NCBI GenBank assembly: GCA_001972305.1
Contig: BDDD01001830.1
Coordinates: 502,109 to 566,108 of the forward strand
Direction: 5' to 3'
Origin: Cephalotus follicularis
Taxonomy: Eukaryota; Streptophyta; Magnoliopsida; Oxalidales; Cephalotaceae
DNA length: 64,000 bases
Positions 1 through 46,173 of this stretch are shown here, one piece after another. The position numbers and the translations under genes were made by a program. Within the stretch, counting starts at the first letter, position 1. The number at the start of each line of letters is the position of its first letter. The notes below the pieces were generated by a model. The model was not told where the DNA came from and searched no databases. It saw only the letters and a program-made list of their open reading frames with translations.

Positions 1-1277
1 AAAGATGTCGATGCTTTCCAAAGACAACGATGTCTTTATGATAACAGGAGGTATCAGTGCGCGAGTCTGGATTCTGGAGGGTAGAATCCAGTCCCTAAAT
101 CCTCATATAATCAAAACTTACCCTCTCAAGGCGTAAGAAAAGCTACTGGTTATCATAGTATGTAACCAGAACGTCAATTCGTAAACAAACGTGTAATCCC
201 AAGTGGCTACTTTGCCATCTGCAATAAACATCGCAGTTCTATGACTACCCAGAAAAGGCGTCGATGCTTTTACTCAAACATCGATGTCTTTTCCATACGA
301 ACGTGAAGACATCGACGTCTTCATGTAGACGTCGACGTTTATCCAGCCCAGAACGTTTTCTCCATAGTTTTTAACACAGCAGCCATTATCAAAATCATCC
401 ATACATAACCCAGTTCAATATCCATGTAATTTACACATGCATGCTAACTCCATATATCACAGTAAACACCACAGCAAGTCCAAAATCACAATTCAACCAT
501 TAACATGCAATTCATCATGTTATTCACTAACTTAAAACCCAAAATGCATGTATAAGCTTATCACTTTCCCCTACCTTGTTGTTCCACGTTAGGAACTGGA
601 AAGTCCACCCCTTTACGTTCCCAGGTTCTGGCCACAGTAGCTCCAAGATCCTCTTATACAGATGGCTCCCCCAACCTCTTTCTCCTTGCATTCAATGGGC
701 ACTCTCGTGCTCTCTCCCTCTTTCCCAGAACTCTCCCCTTTCCATTTTGTTTTCTTCTCCTATTTTATTTGCAGGTTGCATGCATGGTAACACTTATTGC
801 CTTCTTCATCCTCCTTCAGTCATGCAAGTCAGGAGACCATCGTGCATGATCAACACGTCTCCTTCCCGTGCCTCAAGGTGCCTGCTTGGATCCTAAATCC
901 TTCCCTCTGCATGTTACTCTGTCAGTTCATATCGTAAATGATATTCTTTTAAAAGGCGTCGACGTCTTTCTTTAGACATCGATGTCTTTTCCATTTTTGT
1001 AAGATGGTGTCGATGCCTTCTCTCAATGTCGACGTGCATGCCCATGCATTCACGTGTAGCTTGGTTCCCATAGGCATCGACGTCTGTCCAAAGACATCGA
1101 CGCTTTTCTTCCAAAACTGTGCCGTTTTCAAGTTTAACTTACACATTTCTTTCCCTAATCAATATTTAGGGTTTGGAGACATCTTTCGAGTTTGAAATTT
1201 CAACATTCTCATTAATTCAAGTTTAAGATTACACCTCAAAACGAAATATTACAATTAGGAAAATACCGGGTGTTACA
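1..1277 (-). repeat. Family A LTR, partial (enters from left edge)
   Basis: The right part (as read on +) of an LTR of the same family as the LTRs of element A at 5452-7360 and 10897-12480. Shared blocks lie at 1-115 and 895-1277, and it ends in the same CCGGGTGTTACA. The element strand is minus, so this + strand end is the U3 start. Two clusters of GTCGAC-type palindromes lie near 244-345 and 955-1103. Between them are the block CCCCTACCTT (568-577) and a pyrimidine tract ending TTTGCAGGT (768-775), both of which recur in the other minus-strand LTR families. The bases 120-890 have no counterpart in element A's LTRs. It may be a solo LTR or one end of an element outside the window; its other target repeat is not visible. 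Confidence 0.85.
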
Positions 1278-1790
1278 AATATGAAAAATGATTTATGGCT
1301 AAAGAATTGATATTACATGATTTGACGGATGTGGATCCATGAGATCCTTTACAAATGGTTTCTATCATTTAAAAGCATACATGATTTTGGATCACGAGAA
1401 TTGGATGGATTCTTGATTGTACTGTATGAGACTATAGAGATAACCCAATCCTGACTTTCATTTACGTCGTGAATGTCATGGATGATAGACCCATATACAT
1501 GGCGTGGACCCCACACATTGGGAGGACCCATATAAATTATGATATAAATGACGTGGTCAGTGTTATCTCATTCCTCACACCTCCATAACACCAAAAGTGC
1601 GTCGAGGGTGGGATGGACCCTATAGACTGATTGTTCCTATGACTGATATGGATTGTTATATGGATTGTCTGCAGGCCTATGGCCTTTGATATGACATTAG
1701 GACTAGCTGAGTATACCACTTCTTAGGGCGAGTTGGTATACGAAAGCTGTCCGCACTTGACATTCATGCACATAGCATGCCATACACACA

Positions 1791-2042
1791 CATACTGTGA
1801 TACGGTTATATTACATGACATACCATGATACGGTTGCATTACATGGCATACCTCTATACGATTACATTACATGACATACTATGATATGGTTGCATTACAT
1901 GACATACTATGATACAGTTGCATTACATGGCATACTGCTATACGGTAACATTACATGACATACTATCATACGGTTGCATTACATGGCATATTGCTATTCG
2001 GTTACATTACATGACATGCTGCTATATTGTTGCTATGCATGG
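1791..2042 (+). repeat. 28-bp minisatellite, nine units
   Basis: Nine units of exactly 28 bp in register, each starting CATA or CATG, with a middle like ATACGGTTGC and an end ATTACATGR. Units ending ATGG and ATGA often alternate, which hints at an older 56-bp dimer. It lies in the family-N LTR just after a block shared with the solo LTR at 19293-22930. That LTR has unrelated tandem repeats at the matching place. Confidence 0.9.
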
Positions 2043-2560
2043 CATATAATATAGCTTTCTGCCATACGGATTGTACGGTTGCGGTTATAGATCGAATGGT
2101 TATGAATCGTACGGTTATGGAACGGTTACGAAACGGATATGGAATGGTTATGGAACGGATACGATTTGGTTATGGATCATATCGTTATGGATCGTAATGG
2201 TCCGGATGGTAATGGTATATGGACATTGATGGTGGCTGTAGTTAGAGAGATCGGTGTTAGAGAATGTTCATCTTGTCTCCCCTGTTCTACTTATGGATGC
2301 TACTCTAATCTGCCAGTGGAATAAGGACTTCTTCCTAGGAGGCCAAGAGCGCCTAGTCTGTTACCTCAACAGAGAAGGCCGAGAAGAACTTATATACGCT
2401 TGAAAGGATTTTAGAATGATATGGACACTGAATGATAGTGGCAAGTTTCTAAATGCTAGTTTTCATAGCACGGTTTATATCGATTGTCATGGATACATCT
2501 CTCATATAGCATACTTATCTGCTGCACTCCTATATGTACCTTGCATATGTGTATCCTACA

Positions 2561-2608
2561 CAACCTTCGGGTTGCTGACCCATTGCATTGTATTGTAATG
2601 TAATGGGT
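2561..2608 (+). other. Two adjacent hairpins in family N LTR
   Basis: First hairpin: CAACC (2561-2565), loop TTCG, GGTTG (2570-2574), a C(UUCG)G tetraloop if transcribed. Second: ACCCATT plus CATT pairs with AATG plus AATGGGT (2578-2589 with 2597-2608), with a single mismatched position in the stem. The matching place in the other family-N LTR (22104-22149) has two hairpins with different stem sequence, so the fold is kept while the bases change. Confidence 0.75.
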
Positions 2609-3727
2609 TAGGTTTAGGTCCAGGTGACGCGTAGCAGTGACCAGCCAGGTTAAATTGCAGGGTAAGGATTTACATTTTTCCGACCTACTTTGTATAAATG
2701 TGGTGTTTGTAAATGGAAAAATATTGAGTATGGATGTGTATATGGTTATTGTAAAGAGACATGATTTATTTTTGTATTTGACCTGTCGGCTTGTGGCAGT
2801 GCTTGTTTAATATGTGTTGATGTAAAGGAAATGGATGGGTCCATATATTGTGATATACTGCTGATTCCTCCTTCGGGAGTGTGGATATGAATTGAGTTAT
2901 TCTTTACAGGGGGATATATTCCGATAAACAAATACTTCATGCCCGATTTTTGGGAGATTTGAAGAGTTAGTTTTTATATGGATTGATTATTCCGCTGTTG
3001 TATTATGACTTTGATTTAAAGTTTTAAATTTGTTGCACTTTTCAGAGTATGATATATGATATGGTTTGATAGAATGGATGGTATCTCACGCGTCGAGTCG
3101 TGGGGGTTTACCCTCGCGGTTCGGGGCGTGACATATGTCACACCCCGTTCCTGATAAATGACATTTAAATGGTAGCAATTAACATAATATCCGACTTATA
3201 CAATTTTACGGTAAAATTTAAAACCTTTGCAAATCCATTAACAACCATTTCGATTCATTGCGGAAGCATCACATTTATATAAGCCAAAACAAAACGTAAC
3301 ATGCATCTCATACTACATGTTACTACTTAATTAATTATCCATCCAGCATTAAATGCCCCTAAAACGGACCGTGAATAAAACTTATCGATACATACATCTC
3401 TCCATAGAGACATTCAATTAACAAATATCCAATACCCATCCATTGTTTCAAAACCTATTAATACAGTTATCAACTTGAAACAAAGTACAACTTAACATCC
3501 TCTTCAAACATGAGCAGGATTTATTACAACAAAATACAAATTAAACAACCTTCAAAATAGAAGCTTCCAAAACAGCTTCTGCAGCACTTGTCCAATTGCC
3601 TCTATCAATATGAAATTGTAGGGGGCTAGCCTTTGTCCTCACTTGGCTAAGTATAAATACATTTTGGGATCAAAATAATGAATGACATGTAATGAATGCA
3701 TTCATGATGCAACACACATATGTAACA

Positions 3728-3744
3728 GTATATATGTATATATA

Positions 3745-3775
<31 letters not shown>

Positions 3776-3782
3776 CGTATAC
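3728..3782. repeat. TA-rich microsatellite
   Basis: Nearly pure alternating TA with a few interruptions. A second, weaker run with the unit TATATG follows at about 3825-3882. Both lie in LTR Z. Similar short TA runs sit at the matching place in the LTRs of elements A, D and E. Confidence 0.9.
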
Positions 3783-3977
3783 AACGAGATTTACTGGGCT
3801 AATATAAAATAATAGTACATCTACGTATATATATGTATATATATGTATATATACATACATCTATGTATATATATATATCCACAATACACAACAGTTTGCA
3901 ACAATGTCAAGTGGCTATAGCCAGACAATCTATTTTGCTCAGGTCTCTAAGGACCCATCAAACTCAATCCAAGAGGA

Positions 3978-4199
3978 TGCGTACACACTGTGATTAGCAC
4001 CCGGTTACATTACACACATGTGATCCGTAACCCAATTACATTACACACTGTGATTAGTAATCATCGCATAAAGGGAGTCTCAACTATTTACACACTATGA
4101 TTTATAGCCATAATGAGAAACCCTAACTACCATACACACCGTGATTAGTAGCAAACATATGTGAAATTCACAGTTACTGTACACACCGTGATTAGTAAC
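3978..4199. other. Array of about six hairpins with shared loop, variable stems
   Basis: Six units share a loop core like TACACACCGTGATTA but have different flanking arms, and each arm pairs with its partner: TGC/GCA (3978-3998), GGTTAC/GTAACC (4003-4032), ATTAC/GTAAT (4035-4061), CTAT/ATAG (4084-4107, with outer TCTCA/TGAGA), CTAC/GTAG (4127-4151) and GTTAC/GTAAC (4173-4199). The loop core has a further small CAC/GTG fold. Spacing is about 25-45 bases. Change in the arms with pairing kept is what a selected fold would give. No function is known to me. Confidence 0.7.
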
Positions 4200-4582
4200 C
4201 TATGGAATTCCCATCACAATCAATTTCTATCAATCCATTTCCAAGTAAATTATAGTTTATAAAATACTTGACAATATTACATTTATTTGAAATGTATAAC
4301 CAGTCATTTTGAACAGTATTCAGTCCTTCGAAAATACTCATTTTCGTATAAATAATTTCAATAGTTTGAAACTATTTTGCAATCCTTTTTGGAAAATATA
4401 CATTTCCATACAACAATCATATACACATTTCTCAAAATGAAGAACATTTTAGAAATCATGCGATAACTCAATCAATGATTCAATTCACAACAGTATGCAA
4501 TGCAAACATATGCTCAGATGCAGCTAGGCTCAATCCGGGCTCAACGGGTATCATCTAAGTGAAATTGCCCAAAACGGTGCTT

Positions 4583-4927
4583 TAAAGCATCGATGTTTAT
4601 CTCTTTGGCGTCGACGCTTATGTCCTCTAAGCGTCGATGCTCAAGTCCTTAGTGTCAGCGCCTTCCAGTGGTTTTAAGGTGTCGATGTTCAACTCATTAC
4701 GCATTGATGCTCAAGGTGTGGAACCCTAAGTGTCAGCGCTCCCCCTCCGGCGTCGACGCTTTAAGGTAGGAACCTTTAGCGTCTACGTGCAACACGTTTG
4801 TATTCATGCTAAATGAACCATGTTGTTGACACTTCCCTCTAACGTCGACGTCTATTGTGTAATCAGTAACAATATCTCGAATCACAGTCCAAAGCGTCGA
4901 CGCTTACTTCGTGAGCGTCGACGGTTA
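4583..4927. repeat. Cluster of GTCGAC palindromic motifs in LTR Z
   Basis: About a dozen copies of a motif near AAGCGTCGACGCTT, perfect or with one or two changes, spaced irregularly by 15-45 bases. Exact GTCGAC cores occur near 4612, 4750, 4843, 4897 and 4917. A second small cluster of the same LTR lies at about 29115-29215. Confidence 0.85.
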
Positions 4928-5241
4928 TAACCCATAACATTGTATCTTTCGTTTCAACACACAAAATAGCAGTGTTCAATCCAAATATACATGCGATCCA
5001 ACATGGTATCTGTCCAGAAATCAACATGCATAAATAGTCCACACAACCCGGTATTCATAGCATAAATCCAACAGTCCATAATAACAATAGAAGTCATGCA
5101 TCTCATCAATGGCATTACAATATAATTGGACTCAACTTTGCATGTATAGCTTCCCCTACCTTTGGTTTCAAGTTAGAAACTGAAAGTCCACCCTTTAAGT
5201 CCGAACAGTAGCTCTCTAAGCTTCCCAGGTCTGGGCAGTAG

Positions 5242-5451: not shown

Positions 5452-6172
5452 TGTCATACCCCGTTTTTCCCCAATTAAGACAACATTTAAAGCGGTAAGG
5501 CAATCAACATAATATAATCCAGCTCATGCAATTTTACCAAAAAATAAATTTCTCGATAGCGGAAGCATTCATGTAAAAGCTGAATTAAACATATATCACG
5601 CATCCCATACTACGTGATGCCCAACAAGTTTATAAAAACCCAACCTCATTGTCGATCGCCCAAAAACGGAGCGTGAAAATAAACAGTACGAGATAACAAA
5701 ATAACCTTTGTTACAAAAATCCAATAACATGACCAATGTTCATTAACTCAATATAATAAAATAAGAGAGATAACTAAGTCTTCTCTTTAAGTCTCCATGC
5801 ATGCTCCATGTCATATCCACTCCGTCAATCTGTTACAGTAGGGGTTAGCCTTTGTCCTCACTCGGCTAAGTGAATAACTTATAAATACAATTCAAGTCAT
5901 ATGATAATGAGTATCATGAATGAATGCATTATGATGCAATATGACATGTAGTTTTCACAATAATTATATCTCCGTATATACGTATAAAAATATATGCATG
6001 ATCACCGTACAAGTATAACCTCATAAGTTATATCAACACAAGCAATAAGTATGTCTTAAAAGGAACCAAACAAACAAGTCGTCATAACCGTCACCACCTT
6101 CTGGCCCCAACGTCATGCACTCTTACCCCATCCCCGTTTGCGAACGGTTTTGGAGCAAGTCCTCCGTATGTT

Positions 6173-6255
6173 GTTTAGCGCGGCGGCTAAACCAACAGCA
6201 AGTTACTAGCACAGCGGCTGAGTAATCAATAAGTTATTAGCACTGCGACTAATAA
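6173..6255. other. Three tandem hairpins with GCG-type loops in LTR A
   Basis: Units of about 30 bp: GTTTAGC/GCTAAAC (6173-6192, loop GCGGCG), TTACTAGC/GCT-AGTAA with one bulged base (6203-6225, loop ACAGCG) and TTATTAG/CTAATAA (6234-6255). The right LTR copy (about 11618-11700) keeps the folds; there the third stem is longer, with loop ACTGCG. The arms differ between units but always pair. The LTR of element D keeps only the first (near 33018-33035). Confidence 0.7.
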
Positions 6256-6790
6256 TCAACAAGCACAAACATAACACCGTACAAGTCAAGCAATAAAATA
6301 TGATTACTTGATCACATATATTTGTTTAAAATATATTACTCCCTTCATAAGTTGTGATAAGTTATAAAACTTAAAACAATACATTTGATTGTATAATCAA
6401 TCTTTTAAAACAGTTCTCCGTCTTTGGGGATACTTCCCCAGCCATTTCAAAAATATATAAAATCATGTGTTGACAAATATACATTTTCGCACATTTCATT
6501 TGATTGCATAATCAATCCTTTAAATCATTTCTCCGTCATTGGAAAATACTTTCCCCAGTCATTTCGAAAATATATATATTCATATGTTGACAAATATACA
6601 TTTTCGCACAATAATGATTATAAAAATCATGCAAGCTTTTCAAAATGGTTAACACCTTTGAGAAATCAACCATAATGCAATCCACAACAATAATGCAAAC
6701 ATATGCTCAGAATGCATGTAAGATCGTTTCTAGAGTCGTTTCGGGTCTAGCGGGTCCCATTCGAGTGAAATTCCATTAAACAGGGACATA

Positions 6791-6850
6791 GGCGTCGACG
6801 TCTTTACCCTAAGGCGTCGACGTCTTTACCCTAAGGCGTCGAGCCTATGT
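6791..6850. repeat. 22-bp tandem repeat of GTCGAC motif
   Basis: Starts at 6791, 6813 and 6835; each unit reads GGCGTCGACGTCTTT followed by ACCCTAA, the last being incomplete. It belongs to the palindromic-motif cluster of LTR A. Confidence 0.85.
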
Positions 6851-7360
6851 ACAGTAATTCCCAGACGTTTTTGGATCAAAGACGTCGATGTCTTTCGAAA
6901 GACATCGATGTCTTTATGATACCAGAAGGTATCAGTTCGCGAGTCTGGATTCTGGAGGGGAAAATCCAGCCCCTAAATAAGATCCCCCATTGCATGTTAC
7001 TCTGTCAGTGTATAACGTGACAGATGTTCTTTACAAAGGCGTCGACGTCTTTCCTTAGACGTCGATGTCTTTTCCTTTTTCACCAGAAGGTGTCGATGCC
7101 TTCTCTCTATATCGACGTGCATGCCCATGCATTCACGTGTACCTCGGTTCCCATAGGCGTCGACGTCTTTCCAGAGACATCGGCGTGTTTCTTCCAAAAC
7201 TGCGTCGTTTTCAAGTTTAACTCACACATTTCTTTCCCTAATCAATATTTAGGGTTTGGAGACAGCTTTTGAGTTTGAAATTTCAACATTCTCATTAATT
7301 CAAGTTTAAGATTACATCTCAAAATGAAATATTACAATTGGGAAAATACCGGGTGTTACA

Positions 7361-10896: not shown

Positions 10897-12480
10897 TTTC
10901 ACACCCCGTTTTTTCCAAATTAAGACAACATATAAAGTGGTAAGCCAATCAACATAATATAATCCAGCTCTTGCAATTTTACCAAAAAATAAATTTCTCG
11001 ATAGTGGAAGCATTCATGTAAAAGCTGAATTAAACATACATCATGCATCCCCTACTACGTGATGCCCAACAAGTTTATAAAAACCCAACCTCATTGTCAA
11101 TCGCCCAAAAACGGAGCGTGAAAATATACAGTACGAGATAACAAAATAACCTTTGTTACAAAAATCCAATAACATGACCAATGTTCATTAACTCAATACA
11201 AGAAAATAAGAGAGATAACTAAGTCTTCTCTTTAAGTCTCAATGCATGCTCCATGTCATATCCACTACGTCAATCTGTTACAGTAGGGGTTAGCCTTTGT
11301 CCTCACTCGGCTAAGTGAATAACTTATAAATACAGTTCGAGTCATATGATAATGAGTATCATGAATGAATGCATTATGATGGAATATGACATGTAGTTTT
11401 CACAATAATTATATCTCCATATATACATATAAAAATATATGCATGATCACCGTACAAGTATAACCTCATAAGTTATATCAACACAAGCAATAAGTATGCC
11501 CCAAACGGAACCAGACAAACAAGCCGTCATAACCGTCGCCACCTCCTAGCCCCAACATCATGCACTCTTACCCCATCCCCGTTTGCGAACGGTTTTGGAG
11601 CAAGTCCTCCGCATGTTGTTTAGCGCGGTGGCTAAACCAACAGCAAGTTACTAGCACAGCGGCTGAGTAATCAACAAGATATTAGCACTGCGGCTAATAA
11701 TCAACAAGCACAAGCATAACACCGTACAAGTCAAGCAATAAAATATGATTACTTGATCACATATATTTGTTTAAAATATATTACTCCCTTCATAAGTTGT
11801 GATAAGTTGTAAAACTTAAAACAATACATTTGATTATATAATCAATCTTTTAAAACAGTTCTCCGTCTTTGGGGATACTTCCCCAGCCCTTTCGAAAATA
11901 TATAAAATCATGTGTTGACAAATATACATTTTCGCACAATACATTTGATTGCATAATCAATCCTTTAAATCATCTCTACGTCATTGGAAAATACTTTCCC
12001 TAGTCATTTCGAAAAAATATATATTCATATGTTGACAAATATACATTTTCGCACAATAATGATTATAAAAATCATGCAAGCTTTTCAAAATGGTTAACAC
12101 CTTTTAGAAATCAACCATAATGCAATTCACAACAGATCCCCCATTGCATGTTACTCTGTCAGTGTATAACGTGACAGATGTTCTTTACAAAGGCGTCGAC
12201 GTCTTTCCTTAGACGTCGATGTCTTTTCATTTTTCACCAAAAGGTGTCGATGCCTTCTCTCTATATCGACGTGCATGCCCATGCATTCACGTGTACCTCA
12301 GTTCCCATAGGCGTTGACGTCTTTCCAAAGACATCGACGCGTTTCTTCCAAAACTGCGCCATTTTCAAGTTTAACTCACACATTTCTTTCCCTAATCAAT
12401 ATTCAACATTCTCATTAATTAAAGTTTAAGATTACATCTCAAAACGAAATATTACAATTGGGAAAATACCGGGTGTTACA
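10897..12480 (-). repeat. Element A, 5' LTR
   Basis: Pairs with 5452-7360 over its whole length but is shorter. Same U5 footprint block, hairpin trio (about 11618-11700) and terminal motif cluster (about 12190-12340); ends CCGGGTGTTACA before target repeat ATTTG. Confidence 0.9.
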
Positions 12481-15304: not shown

Positions 15305-18008
15305 TGTCACACCCCGTTATTCCATTACATAGACAACATATGTGGTAATATCGGGAATAAGTATATTAATCCAGCATTCCAAATAACAGTTCAAATATAT
15401 AAGCGGAAGCATTCATATCTTGATTATCAAATAAAAGTCAACTACACGCAGCCCATACTACGTGCATGTACTATCCAGCAATATCCTCATACATAAAGAA
15501 AGTACAACCGTAACATGGAGTGTGAACTGTTCAATACAGTTAAAGTACAACATAAGAATAACAACCTTAATAGAAATAGCAATTCTCCAAAAGCTCCAAC
15601 AGCACCTCCCGTACGTCTTTGCTTAATCTGAAATTGTAGGGGTTAGTCGTTGTCCTCACTTGGCTAAGTAGGAAGATAATGCATGTTAAGGAATATATAA
15701 ATGCAGCATTTATGACATTTTATATTTAAAATAACATAGTTAAGTATTCCAATATATAAGAAATCATGCCAAGTGGCCATAGACAATACAATGCAAGAAT
15801 ACCGCACAAGGGTACAATCAATCAGTACAGTGGTTTGGGTGTCACATGTCGCTAACTCCTAGCACCAACTGTGCACCACCTATCTATCACCCCTCATTCC
15901 GGAGATGATAGATCAGGTCAGTTACTACCGGCATTAGCGGCAGTTTAACAATCAAGTTTTGCATTGCAGACAGTTTGGGTGGATACTCTAGCCAACTCCT
16001 GGCACATAGGACCACCTCCGTAGCCAGTGATGTCTCCTATTACTCGACTAACGGCAATAGCATAGACAAACAATTCAATCAATTCGGTAATATTACATAA
16101 ATTGTTAGAATGTAATATAGGGTTCTTTTCTTTTGAAACATAAAACAATTCAGTAACCATACATCTCATAGGAGGAAAACGATATTAGTCCAGTAACAGT
16201 ACCTCTCAAATGAGGCAAAACAGTAATCATTGGACAATATACATTTCCATTTTGAAAACCGTAAGGAGTTCATATTTGTGCTTAAAGAGCTAGTTGATTC
16301 AATCATTTGAAAATAAGGGAAGTAGTGTTAATGAACACCCTAAACAGTATACATTACTTATAACAGTAGCATATGCAGCAAACAATAAGCACAACAATAA
16401 TCCAAGGTTCAATCAAGTTATTGTATACTCTAGTTACTCTTGTAAATTCTCACAGGGAGTATACACATTGTTTAATTTATGGAATGTAATTATATAAGGC
16501 CAGGGTTGACTATCACAGTCATCCAATATGGAGGCCAGGTCAAATTACATTCAATTGAAGGTCTAATTAGGGCCTGTATCATAATTCTAACCCAGAACAG
16601 TCGGCTGTTTCCAACAACAGTCGGCTGTTTGGTTAAGTAGTCGACTGTTTGTTCTTAACAGTCGACTGGTTCATTTGAGTAGTCGACTGTCATGAAGAAT
16701 AGTCGACTGCTTTGCCCAGAAAAAGCAGGCAGTTGCAGGTTATGCATTTTAATGTCCAAAACTAACCCGAATAGCATATGCAATCAAACAGAAAATTAAG
16801 CATACATGATATGCACAATATATCTTCCATAATATGTCATTACCCCTACCTTAAAAGCTATCCCGAGATCAATTGGGTTTGATCTCTCTCTTTGAGTTGC
16901 AAGTCCTTTCCCCAACTCAATCCTCCAATTCCAGCAGAATTAATCTATATCATGCATGCCTGAAGGTTCCGTCACTTAGTCAGTAAGTTAACTAATTATC
17001 TGATTACACTTACTACTCCAACAGTAGCTTATCACTAGATCATTATGTCTCTCTTTCACATTATTAAACAACTTCTCTCCACTATTCAATTCCACTTCAA
17101 GTAATTACCATGTTTGCATGTTACAGAAGGTAGGTATAGAGGTGATTAGAACACATATACTTATTTACAACCATAACAGCAACAATAATTCAATTTAGAG
17201 GCTTAAAATCTCAACTTTTCTTGAACCCTTTACCAATTCCATTTCAATTCTAGAAATTCCTAACCTTAATCATGTTAACAGAAGCTATCTAACATCCTCC
17301 TAGTTACATTATCAACATCAGCAGTGAGCTCAAATTTGGGAACTTACCAGGAAACCCAAAGCTTCTAAGTCTCTTGAACACCCCAAATCCTCCAAGTGCA
17401 AGTCCTACAATCTTCCAGCAAGTCTCCCTCTAGCCTCAGTGTTTTCTAACATTCACACTCAGTTCTAGCAGCTGATATACAGTTAGAAACTTAGGAATCG
17501 TCAGACTCCATTACTCAGCCTTCTCTCCTTTCCTTCTCTCTCTCACATGCACCACTCTTTCTCACCTTTCTCTCTTCCCATTTCTGTTTGCAAGTTGCAG
17601 GTCTGCAGAGCACATGCAAAGCATTACTTTTTTGCATGTTCTGGTAGCTGTTGTCTCATATGACACCTGCCCATCATGCACCCCCTTTGCTTCTGTCACA
17701 CAGGCATGCACAGACACTTGTTATGTACCATTCCAGTCGACTTTATTCACTTGGCAGTCGACTGTCCATTCCTAGCATCAAACAGTCGACTGTTCCCCTG
17801 TGACAGTTGGATGTTCCCTCATGAACTAGGCAGTCTACTGTTACCCTGTAATAGTCGGCTGTTTTGCCAGATTTTGGTTGCTCAAGTTTATCTCCTTAAT
17901 TGACTTCACAACCATAATTCATATACAAATAGACATTAAAATTCAAGTAAGTGCATATTTTATTCATCAATAGTACAATATACACGGATTGAATTTGCGG
18001 TTATTACA
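15305..18008 (-). repeat. Element B, 3' LTR
   Basis: From TGTCACACCCCG to GCGGTTATTACA, nearly the same as 26387-29072. Motifs: U5 block (GCGGAAGCATT, CATACTACGTG), candidate acceptor region (15625-15646), hairpin ATCTATCA/TGATAGAT (about 15876-15912), two clusters of AGTCGACT or GTCGGCTG palindromes (16598-16711 and 17732-17872), donor-like CCCTACCTT (16843-16852) and a pyrimidine-rich tract (about 17520-17600). Confidence 0.93.
16598..16711. repeat. Cluster of AGTCGACT palindromes in LTR B
   Basis: Six close copies of CAGTCGACTG or CAGTCGGCTG, spaced 15-25 bases. A second cluster of the same LTR lies at 17732-17872. Both recur in the other LTR (about 27680-27770 and 28795-28930). Confidence 0.9.
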
Positions 18009-20850: not shown

Positions 20851-21499
20851 CTAGTCGACGCTTAGTGTCCTGTTTTGCGAAATGGCACTGTTTCTCGCTG
20901 TCTTCAAATCCAAACTGTTTCTTCTTTAAATTGATTCCATAGGAAGCCTCCCTAAGGCCTTGTATCCTATGCGAATCATCTTTTAACACTGTTGAATCTC
21001 CAATCAAGTTTTCAAAGTGATTCTTGAAGCAATGCAACAAAAGAGTTTTCATGCAAATGGGTTTTAAGAATGGTTAGGATAGCCCTTTTTGGACATCTGG
21101 GCCCGGATATCCAATTGGACTTCCTCTCCATTGTTTCATAAACTTCGATAGGGACCAACAACTGTTACTGAAAACTGTTACTGAAACTGTTACTGAATAC
21201 TGTTTTACTACTGTATTGACGGATGTGGATCACATTGGTCCTTTAGGTCCCTATCATTTCTACTGTTTACTGTTACTGGGTGCGACTACTGTATGATTAC
21301 TGTTTATTGTTATTGTTTGAGACTGTATGGGATAACCCATTCATAATCTTCATTTCCGTCATGAAGTATTATGGGTGTTTGGCCACACATCACTGTTAAT
21401 CCTCCTTTTTTTTGTGACCTACAGGAGTCACCGCCTGAGGGATGGATACAGTTACTGTTACTGATACTGTTACTGAGAGCTCTACTGTTAGTGTTACTG

Positions 21500-21604
21500 G
21501 CTAGTACCCTTCGGGTCTAGCAATACTGTTACTGTTACTAGCTAGTACCCTTCGGGTCTAGCACTACTGTTACTGTTACTGGCTGGCACCTTCGGGTCCA
21601 ACGC
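21500..21604 (+). other. Three hairpins with TTCG-type loops
   Basis: Two copies of GCTAG-t-ACC...GGT-CTAGC (21500-21521 and about 21540-21562) and a third, TGG-c-ACC/GGT-CCA (21584-21600). They are separated by ACTGTT repeats. In the third copy one stem pair has changed from A-T to G-C. Confidence 0.65.
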
Positions 21605-21849
21605 TACTGTACTGTTTTCGTGGCCAGTGTTATCCTATGCTCCATACGACTCTAACACGGGAGGGTTGTGTTTAGTCGATGGGGGTACTATCTCGGGCCG
21701 GAGTGGCAGAGAAGTACTTGACCCTACAACTGTTTGTTCCCATGTACTGTTACTGACTGATTACTGAGTGTCTGCAGGCCTATGGCCTTGGATGTGATTA
21801 GGACCAGTTAGATATACCCCGCTTAGGGACGGTTGGTATATCGAAGCTG

Positions 21850-26386: not shown

Positions 26387-29072
26387 CGTCACACCCCGTT
26401 ATTCCATTACATAGACAACATATGTGGTGATATCAGGAATAAGTATATTAATCCAGCATTCCAAATAACAGTTCAAATATATAAGCGGAAGCATTCATAT
26501 CTTGATTATCAAATAAAAGTCAACTACACGCAGCCCATACTACCTGCATGTACTATCCAGCAATATCCTCATACATAAAGAAAGTACAACCGTAACACGG
26601 AGTGTGAACCGTTCAATACAATTACAGTACAACATAAGAATAACAACGTTAATAGAAATAGCAATTCTCCAAAAGCTCCAACAGCACCTCCCGTACGTCT
26701 TTGCTTAATCTAAAATTGTAGGGGTTAGCCGTTGTCCTCACTTGGCTAAGTAGGAAGATAATGCATGTTAAGGAATATATAAATGCAGCATGTATGACAT
26801 TTTATGTTGAAAATAACATAGTTAAGTATTCCAATATATAAGCAATCATGCCAAGTGGCCATAGACAATACAATGCAAGAATACCGCACAAGGGTACAGT
26901 CAATCAGTACAGTGGTTTGGGTGTCACATGTCGCTAACTCCTACCACCAACTGTGCACCACCTATCTATCACCCCTCACTCCAGAGATGATAGATCAGGT
27001 CAGTTACTACCGGCATTAGCGGCAGTTTAACAATCAAGTTCTTCATTGCAGACAGTTTGGGTGGATACTCTAGCCAACTCCTGGCACATAGGACCACCTC
27101 CGTAGCCAGTGATGTATCCTATCACTCGACTAACGGCAATAGCATAGACAAACAATTCAATCAATTCAGTAATATTACATAAATTGTTAGAATGTAATAT
27201 AGGGTTGTTTTCTTTTGAAACATAAAACAATTCAGTAATCGTACAACTCATAGGAGGAAAACGATATTCAGTCCAGTAATAGTACCTCTCAAAGGAGGGA
27301 AAACAGTAATCATTTGACAATATACATTTCCATTTTGTAAACCGTAAGGAGTTCATATTTGTGCTTAAAGCACTAGTTGGTTCAATCATTTGAAAATAAG
27401 GGACAGTAGTGTTAATGAACACCTTAAACAGTACACATTACTTATAACAGTAGCATATGCAGCAAACAATAAGCACAGCAATAATCCAAGGTTCAATCAA
27501 GTTATTGTATCCTCTAGTTACTCTTGTAAATTCTCACAAGGAGTATACACATTGTTTAATTTATGGAATGTAATTATATAAGGCCAGGGTTGACTATCAC
27601 AGTCATCCAATATGGAGGCCAGGTCAAATTACATTCAATTGAAGGTCTAATCAGGGCCTGTATCATAATTCTAACCCAAAACAGTCGGCTGTTTGGTTGA
27701 GTAGTCGACTGTTTGTTCTTAACAGTCGACTGGTTCATTTGAGTAGTCGACTGTCATGAAGAACAGTCGACTGCTTTGCCCAGAAAAAGCAGGCAGTTGC
27801 AGGTTATGCATTTTAATGTCCAAAACTAACCCGAATAGCACATGCAATCAAACAGAAAATTAAGCATACATGATATGCACAATATATGTTCCATAATATG
27901 TCATTACCCCTACCTTAAACGCTATCCCGAGATCAATTGGGATTGATCTCACTCTTTGAGTTTCAAGTCCTTTCCCCAACTCAATCCTCCAATTCCAGCA
28001 GAATTAATCTATATCACGTATGCATGAATGTTCAGTCACTTAGTCAGTAAGTTAACTAATTATCTGATTACACTTACTACTCCAACAGTAGCTTATCACT
28101 AGATCATTAAGTCTCTCTTTCACATTATTAAACAACTTCTCTCCACTATTCAATTCCACTTCCAGTAATTACCATGTTTGCATGTTACAGAAGGTAGGTA
28201 TAGAGGTGATTAGAACACATATACTTATTGACAACCATAACAGCAACTATAATTCAATTTAGAGGCTTAAAATCTCAACTTTTCTCGAACCCTTTACCAA
28301 TTCCATTTCAATTCTAGAAATTGCTAACCTTAATCTTGTTAACAGAAGATATCTAACATCCTTCTAGTTACATTATCAACATCAGCAGTGAGCTCGGGTT
28401 TGGGAACCCACTAGGAAACCCAAAGCTTCCAAGTCTCTTGAACACCCCAAATCCTCCAAGTGCAACTCTTACAATCTTCCAGCAAGTCTCCCTCTAGCCT
28501 CAGTGTTTTCTAACATTTACACTCAGTTCTAGCAGCTGATATAGAGTTAGAAACTTAGGAATCGTCAGACTCCATTACTCAGCCTTCTCTCCTTTCCTTC
28601 TCTCTCTCACATGCACCTCTCTTTCTCACCTTTCTCTCTTCCCATTTCTGTTTGCAGGTTACAGGTCTGCAGAGCACATGCAAAGCATTCCTTTTTTGCA
28701 TGTTCTGGTAGCTGTTGTATCGCATGACACCTGCCCATCATGCACTCCCCTTGCTTCTGTCACACAGGCATGCACATACACATGTTCTGTACCATTCCAG
28801 TTGACTGTATTCACTTGGCGGTCAACTGTCCATTCCTAGCATCAAACAGTCGATTGTTTCCCTGTGACAGTCGGCTGTTCCCCCATGAACTAGGCAGTCG
28901 ACTGTTACCTTGTAACAGTCGGCTGTTTTGCCTGATTTTGGTTGCTCAAGTTTATTTCCTCAATTGAGTTCACAACCACATTTCATATACAAATAGACAT
29001 TAAAATTCAAGTAAGTGCATATTTTGTTCATCAAAAGTACAATATACACGGATTGAATTTGCGGTTATTACA
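26387..29072 (-). repeat. Element B, 5' LTR
   Basis: Pairs with 15305-18008 along its whole length, with the same AGTCGACT clusters, donor-like and acceptor-like blocks, and a clear pyrimidine tract ending TTTGCAGGT (about 28640-28659). It ends GCGGTTATTACA before target repeat CTTAT. Confidence 0.93.
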
Positions 29073-32286: not shown

Positions 32287-34806
32287 TGTCACGCCCCCGT
32301 TTTTCCAAATTAAGACAACATATAAAGCGGTAAGGCAATCAACATAAATAATTCAGCTCATGCAAATTACCAATGAATAAATTTCTCCATAGCGGAAGCA
32401 TATAACATAAATGAGCCGAATTTAAAAACGCATCACGCATCCCATACTACGTGATGCCAACAAGTTATAATACAACCCAACATTAAAGTCAATCGCCCAT
32501 AAACGGAGCGTGAAATAATAATACAGTACGAGAAAAAAAAAATATCCCAAGTTGCAATAACCCAAATTAAAAATCATTGTCCCATAAATCAGTACATAAA
32601 AAGAGAGAAACTAAAAAGTCTTCTCTTTAAGTCTCCAAGCATGCTCCATATCACAAACCACTCCATCAATCTGTTACAGTAGAGGTTAGACTTTGTCCTA
32701 ACTCGGCTAAGTAGAAAAGTTTATGAATACAGTTTAAGGTCAAGGAAATGTGTATCATGAATGAATGCATAGTGATGCAACATGATATGTAATTTTCACA
32801 ATAAATATATCTCCGTATATACATATATATAAAAATATATGCATGTTCACCGTACAAGAATAACTCCGTAAGTTGTATCAACACAAGCAATAATATGTCC
32901 CAAAAGGAACCAGACAAGCAAGTCGCAATAGCCGTCGCCACCTCCTGGCCCCAACGTCATGCACTCTTACCCCCTCCCGTTTGCGAACGGTTAGAAGCAA
33001 GTCCTCCGTAAGTTGTTTAGCACGATGGCTAAAGCAACAGTGTTCGTATTACACAGCACAATTCAAGCAATAAAGTATAATCACTTGATCAAATATATTT
33101 ATTTAAAATATATTACTCCGTTCACAAGTTGAAATAAGTTATAAAACTTAAAACAATACATTTGGATTGCATAGTCAATCCTTTAAACAGTTCTCCGTAT
33201 TTGGGGATACTTCCCCAGCCATTTCGAAAATATATAAAATCATATATTTGACAAATATATATTTCGTACAATAATGATTAAAATAATCATGCAAGCTTTT
33301 CAAAGTGGTTAACACATTTAGAAATCAACCATAATGCAATTCACAGTAGTAATGCAAACATATGCTCATAATGCACCTAGGGTTATTGGTAATTAACCTA
33401 GGCTTATCTCCTTCTCTAAAAGTCCCATTTCTGCTGTAACAGTCGACTGTTTTTCCATAACTGTCGGCTAGATCCTTGAGTCAGTCGACTGCTCTTCCCA
33501 AGCAGTCCACTTGTTCATCACGAGTACCATGCAGTCGACTGCCTTCCTTCGACAGTTGACTGTTCTGGGTAGTATTGCATGCGTAGTCGACTGGTATTAC
33601 ATGCCAGTCGACTGAAAGTTTGAGTAGTCGACTGCTTCAATTGAGCAATCGGCTGATCTGGGTTGGACAGTTACAATAACCCACTGTTATTTCACTCAAT
33701 CAAGCAATTGAACTCATTCGCACGAATTCAAACCTCAGAATATCATCCATAAACATACATTGGTATAAAACACAACTTAATTCATGCATTATTCTCCGTT
33801 TTTATCATAATTCAAATGACACCCAAATATGGCATTGCATGAAAACCATTTCAATTCTCCATTCAAGATTCAGTAAGCATGCTAGATTATCTATCAACAA
33901 TAACCATAACATGAACAACACTGTAATCCATGGCCAAAACAACTGTACCATTCATTTATAACCTCATTTCACTTAAACTCAAAGTGCATTCATAGAACAT
34001 TCTACACCTACCCCTACCTTTGATTTCAAGTTAGAAATCGGAAGTCCACCTCTTTATGTCTCCTTTCCAGAATCCTTGAGCTTCCCAGTAGCTCCAAGAA
34101 CGGTCCAGTAGCTTCAATCCAAGCTCCACGCTTTAACAATGGAGGACCTCTCACTTCCTCACTATTTCTCTTTTAATTTCTCACTGTTTTCACTCTCAAC
34201 TCTCTGGTACTTTCTTAGCAGATTGTAGAGTGAAAGAGATGAAGGCAAGAAGCATTTTATGCATGTCCTCTCTCCTTCAATCTCTTGCATGGCATAAAAG
34301 CCCCTTTCTCTCACAATCACATGCACACAAACACACACTTGTCATTTCTTATCTTTCTCTCTGTTCTTGCAGGTCCTGGCGTGGTGGTGCATGCACAACA
34401 CGTCTCACTCATGATCAGATGGTGCCTACAAGCTATCTTATCAAGGGCTGCATGTGATCTTGTCACATGCAGATAAAACAGGGCATGATCCAGTCGGCTG
34501 CCATTCCCTGGCAGTCGGCTGCCTTGCCTGGCAGTCTGTGCCAAGTGTCACGATAGCTTTCCAGTCGACTGGTTCCTCACGCCAGTCGACTGCTTATCCC
34601 TTTAGTCCAACAGTCGGCTGGTATATCTCACCAATCGGCTGTCCAGGCCAAAAATCCCCACAATTATACTTAGAATCACACTTCCAAATGCTCTAAGTTT
34701 AACTTAAACTCAAGATATCCACCAAGAAGTTTGCCTTTTATTAATTCAAGCAAAAATTACATCGAGGATTACAATAATACATCAAATTGAATTTCCGGGT
34801 GTTACA
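32287..34806 (-). repeat. Element D, 3' LTR
   Basis: From TGTCACGCCCCCG to GGGTGTTACA. U5 block near 32395-32520, candidate acceptor near 32670-32689, one hairpin TTTAGC/GCTAAA (about 33018), the GGGGATACTTCCCC block (about 33203), AGTCGACT clusters (33439-33655 and 34490-34641), donor-like CCCCTACCTT (34011-34020), pyrimidine tract ending CTTGCAGGT (about 34341-34374) and AACACGTCT (34397-34405). Confidence 0.92.
33439..33655. repeat. Cluster of AGTCGACT palindromes in LTR D
   Basis: About ten copies of CAGTCGACTG or one-base variants. The homologous place in LTR A (6791-6850) holds GGCGTCGACGTC instead. Repeated in the other LTR at about 39625-39845. Confidence 0.9.
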
Positions 34807-34873: not shown

Positions 34874-37330
34874 TCAGATTTCATCCTCACGTTCCCAAGT
34901 TGCTTCATCCGGACGATGAAACTGCCACTGAACCTTTACCATCGGAATGGTTCGGTTCTTTAATACTTGTGTCTTCCAATCCAAAATCCTCACGGGCGAC
35001 TCCTCGCAGGATAGATCATCCCTCATCGTAACCGAGTCATAATCCAAGACATGTGATGGATCTCGGATATACCCTCGTAGCATCGTCACGTGGAAGACAT
35101 CATGTACACTTGACAATGTAGGGGGCAAGGCTAGCTGATAAGCTACCTCCCCAACCCTCTCCAGAATCTGAAAAGGACCAATGTAGCGTGGTGCTAGCTT
35201 GCCCTTTTTCCTGAATCTTTGCACCCCTTTCCACGGAGATACCTTCAAGAATACGTGATCTCCGACATTGAAGGTTAAAGGCCTTCTCTTCACACTGTCG
35301 ACATAGCTCTTCTGCCGACTCTGTGCTGCTAGCAACTTCTCTTTGATGAACTTGACTTTCTCTGAAGTCTCCTCCACCAATTCCGACCCAAGCAATGGTC
35401 CTTCCCAAACCTCGTCCTAACATACAGGTGACCTACACTTTCTCCCGTAGAGTGCCTCATATGGAGCCATACCAATACTCGAGTGATAGCTGTTATTGTA
35501 CGAAAACTCTATCAGAGGGATATGGTCTTCCCAGGTTCCACCAAAATCAATCACACAAGCCCGAAGCATGTCCTCCAAGGTTTGGATGGTACGCTCCGAC
35601 TGTCCGTCTGTCTGAGGGTGGAATGCAGTACTGAGATTCAATCTGGTTCCGAAGGCTGTCTGGAATCTCTTCCAGAAGTTGGAAGTGAAGATCGAATCCC
35701 TATCACAAACAATGCTCACCGGGACACCGTGCAGCCTTACAATCTCCTTCACATACAATCGAGCCAGCTTACTCGCAGAATCAGTGACATGTGTGGGCAA
35801 GAAGTGTGCTGATTTGGTGAGTCTATCAACAATAACCCACACTGCATTATGACGATGCCTAGTCAGTGGAAATCCAGAAACAAATTCCATCGTGATTTGT
35901 TCCCATTTCCACTCTGCCACCGGTAATGACTGTAACAGTCCCGCAGGTCTTTATTGCTCGGCATTGACCCTCTGGCAAGTCAAACACTTTGCGACATATT
36001 CAGCAATCTCGCGCTTCATACCGGGCCACCAATAAGTTTTCTTCATTTCTTGGTGCATCTTGGTGCTACCAGGATGGATACTGTACAGGGATTTATGAGC
36101 CCCGCGGAGTAACTCATCCTTCAGTCTAGGCTCATTCGAAAGACATACACGTCCCCGATATCTCATAATACCATCATCATGTACTCTAAAATCAGACTCC
36201 GAATCCAGATTCTCTCGAATCCGCTGCAATTCCGGATCATGTGGTTGTGCATCTTTGATGTGATGCAGTAACACTGGCTGTACCCGTATGTCAGCCACAA
36301 AGATTCCCGGTGACTGATTGAATGGAGACCACTCCTGCAAGTCTTCCAACATCTTCTATTGCGACACCATCGTACTGGCGACCATAGCCTTGCGACTCAA
36401 GGCATCAGCGACTACATTCGCTTTCCCCGGGTGGTACTGGATACTACAGTCATAGTCATTGAAGAACTCTACCCACCTGCGCTGTCTCATGTTCAACGTG
36501 TCCTGACAGAACAGGTACCTTAAACTTTTATGATCGGTGAAGATCTCAAACAGCGCCCCGTAAAGATAGTGCCTCCACTTCTGAAGGGCGAAGATAATAG
36601 CTGCAAGTTCAAGGTCATGAGTTGGGTAGTTTCCTTCATACAGCCACCCTTGAAAAGTTCTGTATAAACCTCCAGTAATACCCCGCCAAGCCAAGAAAAC
36701 TGCGTACCTCCGTTACATTCGTCGGCTGTGGCTAATTTCTTACCACCTCTGTCTTTGACGGATCCACCGCCAACCCTTCCTCAGATACAATGTGACCAAG
36801 AAAGATCACACGGTCAAGCCAAAATTCACACTTACTGAATTTGGCATACAGCTGGTGCTCTCGGAGTATCTGCAAGGCCAACCTCAGATGGCAAACATGC
36901 TCCTCCTCACTCCTCGAGTATACAAGTACGTCGTCAATAAACACAATGACAAACTGGTCGAAGTACGATCGAAACACGTCGTTCATCAATGACATGAATG
37001 CAGCCGGTGCATTAGTAACACCAAAAGGCATCACAAGGAACTCATAGTGACCGTATCTTGTCCGGAAAGCAGTTTTCTCTATATCTCCCTCCCTCACCCT
37101 CAACTGGTGATAACCTGACCTCAAATCAAGCTTCGAGAACACACTCGCTCCTTGCAACTGGTCGAACAAATCCTCGATGTGAGGTAAAGGATACTTGTTC
37201 TTAATCGTTGCCTTGTTCAACATTCTATAGTCGATGCAGAGCCTCATCGACCCATCCTTCTTCTTGACAAACAGTACAGGTGCCCCCCACGGTGAAACAC
37301 TGGGTCGGATGAAACCCTTATCGATCAGGT
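34874..37330 (-). pseudogene. Element D RT, RNase H, integrase and chromodomain remnant
   Basis: RT with [36 protein letters not shown] and [13 protein letters not shown] (catalytic DD), then [11 protein letters not shown]. RNase H is represented by [20 protein letters not shown] and [10 protein letters not shown]. Integrase has a zinc-binding block (CLTCQRVNAEQ), core blocks [24 protein letters not shown] and [18 protein letters not shown], and a tail [18 protein letters not shown]. The C-terminal chromodomain-like stretch reads EESPVRILDWKTQVLKN, MVKVQWQFH and DEATWEREDEI. Typical Tekay/Del order. A broken fossil. Confidence 0.9.
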
Positions 37331-37337
37331 CCTGTAA

Positions 37338-38530: not shown

Positions 38531-40991
38531 CATAAATAATTCAGCTCATGCAAATTACCAATGAATAAATTTCTCCATAGCGGAAGCATATAACATAAAT
38601 GAGCCGAATTTAAAAACGCATCACGCATCCCATACTACGTGATGCCAACAAGTTATAATACAACCCAACATTAAAGTCAATCGCCCATAAACGGAGCGTG
38701 AAATAATAATACAGTACGAGAAAAAAAAAATATCCCAAGTTGCAATAACCCAAATTAAAAATCATTGTCCCATAAATCAGTACATAAAAAGAGAGAAACT
38801 AAAAAGTCTTCTCTTTAAGTCTCCAAGCATGCTCCATATCACAAACCACTCCATCAATCTGTTACAGTAGAGGTTAGACTTTGTCCTAACTCGGCTAAGT
38901 AGAAAAGTTTATGAATACAGTTTAAGGTCAAGGAAATGCGTATCATGAATGAATGCATAGTGATGCAACATGATATGTAATTTTCACAATAAATATATCT
39001 CCGTATATACATATATATAAAAATATATGCATGTTCACCGTACAAGAATAACTCCGTAAGTTGTAACAACACAAGCTATAATGTGTCCCAAAAGGAACCA
39101 GACAAGCAAGTCGCAATAACCGTCGCCACCTCCTGGCCCCAACGTCATGCACTCTTACCCCCTCCCGTTTGCGAACGGTTAGGAGCAAGTCCTCCGTAAG
39201 TTGTTTAGCATGATGGCTAACCCAACAGTCTCCGTATTACACAGCACAATTCAATCAATAAAGTATAATCACTTGATCAAATATATTTATTTAAAATATA
39301 TTACTCCATTCACAAGTTGAAATAAGTTATAAAACTTAAAACAATACATTTGGATTGCATAGTCAATCCTTTAAACAGTTCTCCGTATTTGGGGATACTT
39401 CCCCAGCCATTTTGAAAATATATAAATCATATATTTGACAAATATATATTTCGTACAATAATGATTAAAATAATCATGCAAGCTTTTGAAAATGGTTAAC
39501 ACATTTAGAAATCAACCATAATGCAATTCACAGTAGTAATGAAAACATATGCTCAGAATGCACCTAGGGTTGTTGGTAATTAACCTAGGCATATCTCCTT
39601 CTCTAAAAGTCCCATTTCTGCTGTAACAGTCGACTGTTTTTCCATAACAATCGCCTGGATCCTTGAGTCAGTCGACTGCTCTTCCCAAGTAGTCGACTTG
39701 TTCACCAGGAGTACCAGGCAGTCGACTACCTTCCTTCGACAGTCGACTGTTCTGGGTAGTATTGCATGCGTTGTCGACTGGTATTACATGCCAGTCGACT
39801 GAAAGTTTGAGTAGTCGACTGCTTCAATTGAGCAGTCGGCTGATCTGGGTTGGACAGTGACAATAACCCACTGTTAATTCACTCAATCAAGCAATTGAAC
39901 GCATTCGCACGTATTCAAACCTCAGAATATCATCCATAAACATACATTGGTATAAAACACAACTCAATTCATGCATTATACTCCGTTTTTATCATAATTC
40001 AAATGACACCCAAATATGGCATTGCATGAAAACCATTTCAATTCTCCATTCAAGATTCAGTAAGCATGCTAGATTATCTATCAACAATAATCATAACATC
40101 AACAACACTGTAATCCACGACCAAAACAACTGTACCATTCATTTATAACCTCATTTCACTTAAACTCAAAGTGCATGCATAAAACTTTCTACAACTACCC
40201 CTACCTTTGATTTCAAGTTAGAAATCGGAAGTCCACCTCTTTATGTCTCCTTTCCAGAATCCTTGAGCTTCCCAGTAGCTCCAAGAACCGTCCAGTAGCT
40301 TCAATCCAAGCTCTAAGCTTTAACAATGGAGGACCTCTCACTTCCTCACTATTTCTCTTTTAATTTCTCACTGTTTTCACTCTCAACTCTCTAGTACTTT
40401 CTTAGCAGATTGTAGAGTGAAAGAGACGAAGGCAGGAAGCATTTTATGCATGTCCTCTCTCCTTCAATCTCTTGCATGGCATAAAAGCCCCTTTCTCTAA
40501 CAATCACATGCACACACACACACTTGTCATTTCTTATCTTTCTCTCTGTTCTTGCAGGTCCTGGCATGGTGGTGCATGCACAACACGTCTCACTCATGAT
40601 CAGATGGCGCCTGAAAGCTATCTTATCAAGGGCTGCATGTGATGTCGTCACATGCAGATGAAACAGGGCATGATCCAGTCGGCTGCCTTTCCCTGGCAGT
40701 CGGCTGCCTCGCCTGATAGTCTGTGCCAAGTGTCACGATAGCTTTCCAGTCGACTGGTTCCTCACGCCAGTCGACTGCCTCTCCCTTTAGTCCAACAGTC
40801 GGCTGGTATATCTCACCAATCGGCTGTCCAAGCCAAAAATCCCCACAATTATACTTAGAATCACACTTCCAAATGCTCTAAGTTTAACTTAAACTCAAGA
40901 TATCAACCAAGAAATTTGCCTTTTATTAATTCAAGCAAAAATTACATCGAGGATTACAATAATACATCAAATTGAATATCCGGGCGTTACA
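38531..40991 (-). repeat. Element D, 5' LTR
   Basis: Pairs with 32287-34806; the first 400 aligned bases are the same. AGTCGACT clusters lie at about 39625-39845 and 40675-40830, and the pyrimidine tract ends TCTTGCAGGT at about 40550-40559. It ends GGGCGTTACA before target repeat GACCA. Confidence 0.9.

Positions 40992-46118: not shown

Positions 46119-46173
<55 letters not shown>

Follow-up and report, generated by a model that had tools for sequence, protein, structure and literature searches.

A six-unit array of constant-loop hairpins with variable, pairing stems in a Ty3/gypsy-like LTR of Cephalotus follicularis

Six neighbouring hairpins in an LTR of Cephalotus follicularis raise the question of what keeps the two arms of a stem complementary when the arms themselves differ from one unit to the next and the loop between them does not. 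The hairpins lie in LTR Z, near one end of the window, i.e., the whole stretch of 64,000 nucleotides of DNA that was analysed. A first-pass annotation made by eye had reported six units and quoted a pair of arms for each, and all of these are present in the sequence, as is the further outer pairing that it noted around the fourth unit (TCTCA, 4078-4082, with TGAGA, 4114-4118). The array was correctly located, with its limits now corrected from 3978-4199 to 3975-4200. The arms given for unit 1, TGC/GCA, were likewise found, and their length of 3 bp was an underestimate, with 6 bp being present on the sense strand, which is the minus strand. The units are as follows.

3975-4002, minus strand: unit 1, stem GGGUGC/GCAUCC, 6 bp including one G-U pair
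4003-4032, minus strand: unit 2, stem GGUUAC/GUAACC, core CACAUGUG with one extra base
4034-4062, minus strand: unit 3, stem GAUUAC/GUAAUU, 7 bp counting the next U-G pair
4082-4109, minus strand: unit 4, stem GGCUAU/AUAGUU, inner stem CAU/GUG with a U-G pair
4125-4153, minus strand: unit 5, stem GCUAC/GUAGU
4172-4200, minus strand: unit 6, stem GGUUAC/GUAACU

In the sense direction all six units share the core AUCAY-N(1-2)-GUGUGUA, and the arms on either side vary, yet pair in every unit. With G-U pairs allowed, the sense stems measure 7, 7, 7, 7, 7, and 6 bp, the shortest being that of unit 1. A search for the core pattern with up to three mismatches finds five of the six units, one being missed because unit 2 has an extra base. 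The core by itself is unremarkable, since it matches seven times in the window against 4.1 matches expected. A self-complementary core is confined to unit 2 (CACAUGUG), which weakens RNA dimer formation as a role for the array. A search of both strands of the window against Rfam at the gathering score gave no match.

The identity of the host element bears on how the array is to be read. The window is densely filled with LTR retrotransposons, of types that point to plant DNA, and seven of the eight translated minus-strand pieces that were scanned match Ty3/gypsy-type families. The families matched in these seven are Retrotrans_gag, Ty3_capsid, RVP_2, RVT_1, RT_RNaseH, Integrase_H2C2, and SH3_Tf2-1, with rve matched only below its curated cut-off; none of the eight pieces gave a chromodomain match. 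RVT_2, the Ty1/copia-type reverse transcriptase, is found in one of the eight (55706-56185). The gene order is that of Ty3/gypsy elements, the reverse transcriptase piece at 36732-37337 lying 5′ of the integrase piece at 35417-35950 in the sense direction. Directly after three of the 14 LTR regions (F1b, F2b, and F3c), the minus strand carries a TGGTATCAGAG-like sequence that we take to be a tRNA primer binding site; minus is thus the sense strand of these three elements. LTR Z ends in TGTCAC and has several segments in common, in the same orientation, with the other minus-sense LTRs. Its likeness is to the LTRs of Ty3/gypsy-type elements; it is truncated at its sense 5′ side and carries no attached coding part.

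3136-5240 (5240 approximate, set by eye), minus strand: LTR Z
3729-3878, strand not assigned: (TA)n tract, a possible TATA-box region, downstream of the array in the sense direction

Counted back from the sense 3′ end of LTR Z, the array is at a distance of 859-1057 bases, with the (TA)n tract downstream of it. No second copy of LTR Z occurs within the 64-kb window, and LTR patterns searched against viral and genome contig collections, which hold few if any plant sequences, gave no match. LTR borders were set partly by eye and vary slightly between analyses (e.g., 38530 versus 38476 for one of them). At 3128-3141 the ends of LTR B (plus strand) and LTR Z (minus strand) meet head to head as GTGACA-TA-TGTCAC. 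Elsewhere, at 42653-46828, two LTR copies of the same family follow each other directly and in one orientation; they are about 91% alike in an alignment of 1,590 bases and possibly reflect an unequal exchange or what is left of a nested insertion.

The pairing of each unit with its own arms is far stronger than in shuffled arms. Summed over the six units, the sense-strand stems amount to 28 pairs with Watson-Crick pairing only and 41 with G-U pairs, and each sum is reached by none of 20,000 mononucleotide shuffles and none of 3,000 dinucleotide shuffles of the arms, the latter being the comparison that the first-pass annotation had named and that its reading withstands. The shuffled mean with G-U pairs on this strand is 18.4. 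On the antisense strand the sums are 28 and 29, and none of 20,000 shuffles reaches either. When arms are exchanged between units, the sense-strand sum is reached by one of the 720 permutations, which is the true arrangement; four of 720 reach the antisense sum with G-U pairs. With the core of unit 2 shifted by one base and with other offsets, two of 720 permutations reach the observed sum. The offsets of the arms were chosen after the units had been inspected, and the permutations were given equal freedom.

Compensating changes are seen in the stems. In a register of six positions by six units, set by hand on trimmed strings, 35 of 36 cells pair and both sides have changed at four of the six positions. 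The covariation score is 0.689 against 0.344 in shuffles, and none of 500 shuffles reaches it. Two of the five covariation measures are not extreme: the count of pairs changed on both sides is reached by 6/500 shuffles and that of further pair types by 153/500. Sliding the register lowers the score to between 0.000 and 0.300, with a slide of −3 still leaving 80.6% of cells paired. Compensating changes that preserve pairs thus exceed the controls in these six units of one LTR. A covariance model, R1, built from units 2, 3, 5, and 6 recovers the two held-out units, unit 1 with an E value of 3.3e-4 and unit 4 with one of 0.002, and the next best of the 17 matches listed for the 64 kb has an E value of 0.25.

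Such figures have to be weighed against the manner in which the array was found, a reader having singled out six units in a single LTR from 64 kb. Chance, sharpened by the choice of the best-looking stretch, is aided by this selection by eye and by the general wealth of short inverted repeats in the window, which holds 426 stems of at least 6 bp against 195.7 in shuffles. It is nevertheless very improbable as an explanation in view of the shuffles (0/20,000), the permutations (1/720), and the recovery of two units by a model made from the other four. It also has to contend with the neighbouring LTR B, whose eight-unit, 28-bp tandem array fails the same arm test: in three settings of core and strand, own-arm pairing is absent and 867 to 3447 of 5,000 permutations reach the sums. 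Because the LTR B array fails, the effect is not produced by tandem repetition alone. Taken together, the evidence supports the conclusion that pairing retained while the arms change exceeds what duplication or chance accounts for.

The two strands differ in the pairs that they allow. On the sense strand the stem cells of the six units include six G-U pairs and no A-C mismatch, and on the antisense strand the same cells become A-C. Going outward from the sense stem, the first pair that is not Watson-Crick is G-U in five of the six units. The first-pass reading of the stems was made on the antisense strand; the pairing that it saw is real, and its choice of strand does not hold, with a sum of 41 on the sense strand against 29. 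A plus-strand reading of the hairpins was therefore rejected, although the plus-strand stems nonetheless exceed shuffles. These observations support sense-strand RNA as the molecule that folds, the numbers being small.

An asymmetry of this kind could also arise if the sense strand drifted generally from C to T and turned G-C into G-U pairs without selection. Other hairpins of these LTRs show no such bias. Among stems of at least 5 bp, all LTR hairpins together have 57 G-U and 70 A-C cells (a count that leaves out region F4, which is included in the list of 14 LTR regions and in the two counts that follow), hairpins other than TCGA palindromes have 54 and 48, and the array zone pooled over LTRs has 11 and 12. 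The TCGA palindromes, classed by a rough rule, lean the opposite way in LTR sense, with 14 G-U and 34 A-C cells. Since the other LTR hairpins show 54 G-U against 48 A-C cells, no general drift lies behind the G-U pairs of the array. For the RNA reading itself, the lack of a G-U excess in the pooled array zone and over all LTR hairpins is a point on the other side.

The strand asymmetry also bears on templated copying without selection, in which one arm is copied from the other by template switching during replication or reverse transcription, so that units diverge and stay complementary. Retrotransposon copying uses a template-switching enzyme, and short palindromes are plentiful elsewhere in these LTRs. 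Template switching has been described (PMC8794818) as able to create and maintain hairpins with paired changes. Copying of this kind predicts perfect Watson-Crick arms that are equal on both strands, whereas in the array G-U pairs are restricted to the sense strand (6 to 0). None of the six units shows an inverted loop, a possible trace of the process, and all hold the loop in the same orientation. Templated copying therefore appears unlikely, though it has to be taken seriously. Of the first-pass proposal that selection or a copying process keeps the fold, the pairing across changed arms stands, and six units separate the two causes only in part. Because the G-U pairs are asymmetric between the strands, the evidence favours, on small numbers, selection on an RNA fold of the sense strand over pure copying and over accounts at the level of DNA.

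Predicted folding energies are weaker evidence than the G-U asymmetry, with the units and the whole region just modestly better than shuffles. Folded singly in the sense direction, five of the six units form the outer stem and, separated from it by an internal loop, an inner stem of CAC/GUG, while unit 4 folded alone (39 nt) takes a different shape. Between 4 and 38 of 200 shuffles are at least as good as the respective sense unit (z −0.83 to −2.93), and the summed energies of the single units are −47.7 kcal/mol for the sense and −31.1 kcal/mol for the antisense strand. Folded whole, the 256-nt region has z values of −1.95 (sense) and −2.26 (antisense) and does not form six clean hairpins.

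A fixed loop with a free stem on the sense strand also occurs in these LTRs apart from the six-unit array. A hairpin whose loop resembles GUAGUAUGGGAUGC is present near the sense 3′ end of eleven of the 14 LTR regions, between −109 and −181; the value of −109 stems from an LTR border set 54 bases short. The hairpin was not found in LTR A, which is cut off, or in the plus-strand LTRs B and C.

3296-3323, minus strand: 3′-end hairpin of LTR Z, stem GUAACAU/AUGUUAC, loop conserved in 11 LTR regions
3290-3330, 5588-5627, 11030-11075, 15432-15478, 26514-26560, 32424-32464, 38612-38652, 41735-41780, 42798-42838, 44358-44398, and 51687-51727, minus strand: the 3′-end hairpin in 11 regions

Its stems differ between LTR families and include GCAUCAC/GUGAUGC, GUAACAU/AUGUUAC, and GUAGCGU/ACGUUAC. 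In the nine distinct rows among the 11, pairing is kept in 81 of 90 cells, and the sense direction shows 20 G-U and three A-C cells; the cells are not independent because LTR families share ancestry. Both sides have changed in five of ten pairs (reached by 13/500 shuffles), and the covariation score is 0.375 against 0.214 in shuffles, with 0/500 reaching it. The count of further pair types is ordinary (277/500).

Arrays with a similar theme occur in the two F1 LTRs, where three hairpins each share a loop and have stems that differ and pair (TTATTAG/CTAATAA, TTACTcAG/CTAGTAA, and GTTTAG/CTAAAC).

6173-6255 and 11618-11701, minus strand: arrays of the F1 LTRs, three hairpins each, with a common AGYCGCNGYGCT-like loop in the sense direction

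Own-arm pairing is the best arrangement in F1a and is reached by 842 of 5,000 random permutations (about one in six), three units being too few to reach significance; in F1b the pattern caught two of the three units. The three-unit array of LTR C pairs no better than chance (1601/5,000). Homology of the six-unit array with these look-alikes, i.e., those of F1, of LTR A (146-169), and of LTR B (1790-2047), is not claimed. Among the R1 matches listed up to an E value of 10 there are no F1 units, and the matching stretches in A and B reach no better than 5.2. The 28-bp tandem array of LTR B (1790-2047, plus strand) holds in its unit CATACTATGATA, which resembles the loop of the 146-169 hairpin in the adjoining LTR A. 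A 41-base tandem repeat at 21483-21616 (plus strand) contains two copies of the hairpin GCTAG..ACCCTTCGGGT..CTAGC and one of a variant, GCTGG..CCAAC. TCGA-centred palindromes form arrays of their own in these LTRs (e.g., 4585-4930, 6790-6915, 16616-16710, 33430-33660, and 45546-45617), with arms that vary by LTR family (AGCG/CGCT, ACAG/CTGT, and AAAGACA/TGTCTTT).

A further small hairpin has a GGAGU or GGAGG pentaloop on a GCCA/UGGC or GCUA/UAGC stem and is present in 16 copies, 11 of them distinct.

6093-6105, 11538-11550, 15851-16003, 26933-27085, 32937-32949, 39125-39137, 42129-42286, 43370-43471, 44940-45041, and 52249-52350, minus strand: GGAG hairpin, 16 copies

Forty of its 44 cells pair and both sides have changed in one of four pairs. 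As a covarying fold it was rejected, the covariation score being reached by 112/500 shuffles and thus not above control. GGAG loops are known from retroviral packaging signals, of which this hairpin is suggestive.

The array relates to known palindromic-repeat clusters of plant LTRs, with the nearest described feature being that of the Sireviruses, which are Ty1/copia elements. According to PMC2829016, Sirevirus LTRs carry clusters of palindromic motifs upstream of the TATA box, the motif differing from family to family, in at least eight and up to 32 copies per element. With one exception these motifs have a CGG-CCG core, and the identity of copies is mostly above 85% (range 66.5 to 100%). 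The first-pass statement that no described system resembles the array was accordingly too strong. The two features share a short self-complementary unit that is clustered in many copies within a plant LTR, and the upstream position of the Sirevirus cluster relative to its TATA box would recall that of the array if the (TA)n tract is the TATA region. LTR Z, which lacks a coding part and is assigned by LTR resemblance, is in contrast of Ty3/gypsy rather than Ty1/copia type. Its array has no CGG-CCG and has the core AUCAY-N(1-2)-GUGUGUA instead, i.e., a long, constant, non-palindromic loop across which variable arms pair. It counts six copies in an LTR that is cut at one side, compared with the at least eight per element given in PMC2829016. 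The TCGA-centred palindromes of these LTRs are closer to the Sirevirus feature than the six-unit array is. Searches of the open-licence literature found no constant-loop, free-stem array in a plant LTR among the matches listed, judged by titles and the beginnings of abstracts, and no paper containing the short LTR motifs as text.

Two further explanations were weighed. In the first, the array would be a set of transcription-factor sites of a U3 enhancer, with the near-palindromic core CACACTGTG as the site and the pairing of the arms incidental. Repeated motifs upstream of the promoter are common in LTRs, the Sirevirus motifs being an example (PMC2829016), and both the position upstream of the (TA)n tract and the near-symmetry of CACACTGTG are in keeping with such a DNA-level function. 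This explanation is quite unlikely, as it accounts neither for arms that differ between units while pairing nor for the strand asymmetry. In the second, palindrome-rich hairpins would be processed by host small-RNA pathways and make the array a silencing hotspot, as proposed for maize Sireviruses. The stems of usual Dicer-like substrates are far longer than the 6-7 bp of the array, which makes such processing very unlikely here. In its favour, small RNAs are in excess at the palindromic clusters of Sirevirus LTRs (Bousios et al. 2016, cited by PMC10760457).

Selection on a sense-strand RNA fold suggests a more specific reading, in which the six units are RNA stem-loops of a Ty3/gypsy-type LTR and form a multivalent docking array for one putative RNA-binding protein; we give it about an even chance. 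In each unit, a variable outer stem of 6-7 bp would lead through an internal loop, with UAAU as the usual 5′ side, to a short inner stem (CAY/GUG) capped by three or four bases. If only pairing is required of the outer stem, it may change through G-U pairs and compensating changes, with the loop as the part that the protein would recognise and the stem as a mere holder. We infer selection as the cause of this pattern, and, provided that the region is transcribed, six adjacent copies could offer multivalent docking and higher avidity. The first candidate for the protein is the Gag/nucleocapsid of the element itself, with packaging as the possible function, and the second is a host factor for RNA export or stability.

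The position of the array would help to choose between these candidates. Should the promoter be the (TA)n tract, the array would belong to U3 and come close to the 3′ terminus of the genomic RNA, a position that would fit a transport element better than a 5′ packaging signal. The constitutive transport element of retroviruses has two repeated loops. It offers an analogy in working (PMC3856414), the array being likewise a possible structured RNA near the RNA 3′ end, if it is in U3, and a candidate dock for a host export protein; it differs in consisting of six short hairpins in LTR Z. Retroviral packaging signals may work in a similar way, with short hairpins whose loops bind Gag. The Gag-binding packaging stem-loops known to us sit in the 5′ leader, whereas the array lies about 860-1057 nt before the LTR end and upstream of the (TA)n tract. 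A U3 placement, if the tract is the promoter, would speak against a packaging leader of the usual kind. Bacterial CsrB-type RNAs, which bind many copies of a protein through repeated GGA-loop hairpins, resemble the array only in principle, in the repetition of a constant loop on varied stems, with organism and protein being unrelated.

More broadly, the array may represent an undescribed class of cis-acting RNA in plant Ty3/gypsy LTRs, composed of tandem fixed-loop hairpins with stems under a pairing requirement alone. Each family would have its own loop type and dock its own RNA-binding protein, and co-evolution of loop and protein would set the specificity of packaging between families resident in the same genome. 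So general a class is a speculative proposal and rather improbable at present. To our knowledge, little has been established about how plant LTR retrotransposons pick out their own transcripts for export and packaging, and a constant-loop, free-stem array offers a compact candidate signal of this kind that is open to direct testing. Selection on an RNA fold and templated copying lead to different expectations for how G-U pairs are distributed over the two strands, and for this reason the array of LTR Z, having six parallel units in a single molecule, is also well suited to telling them apart.
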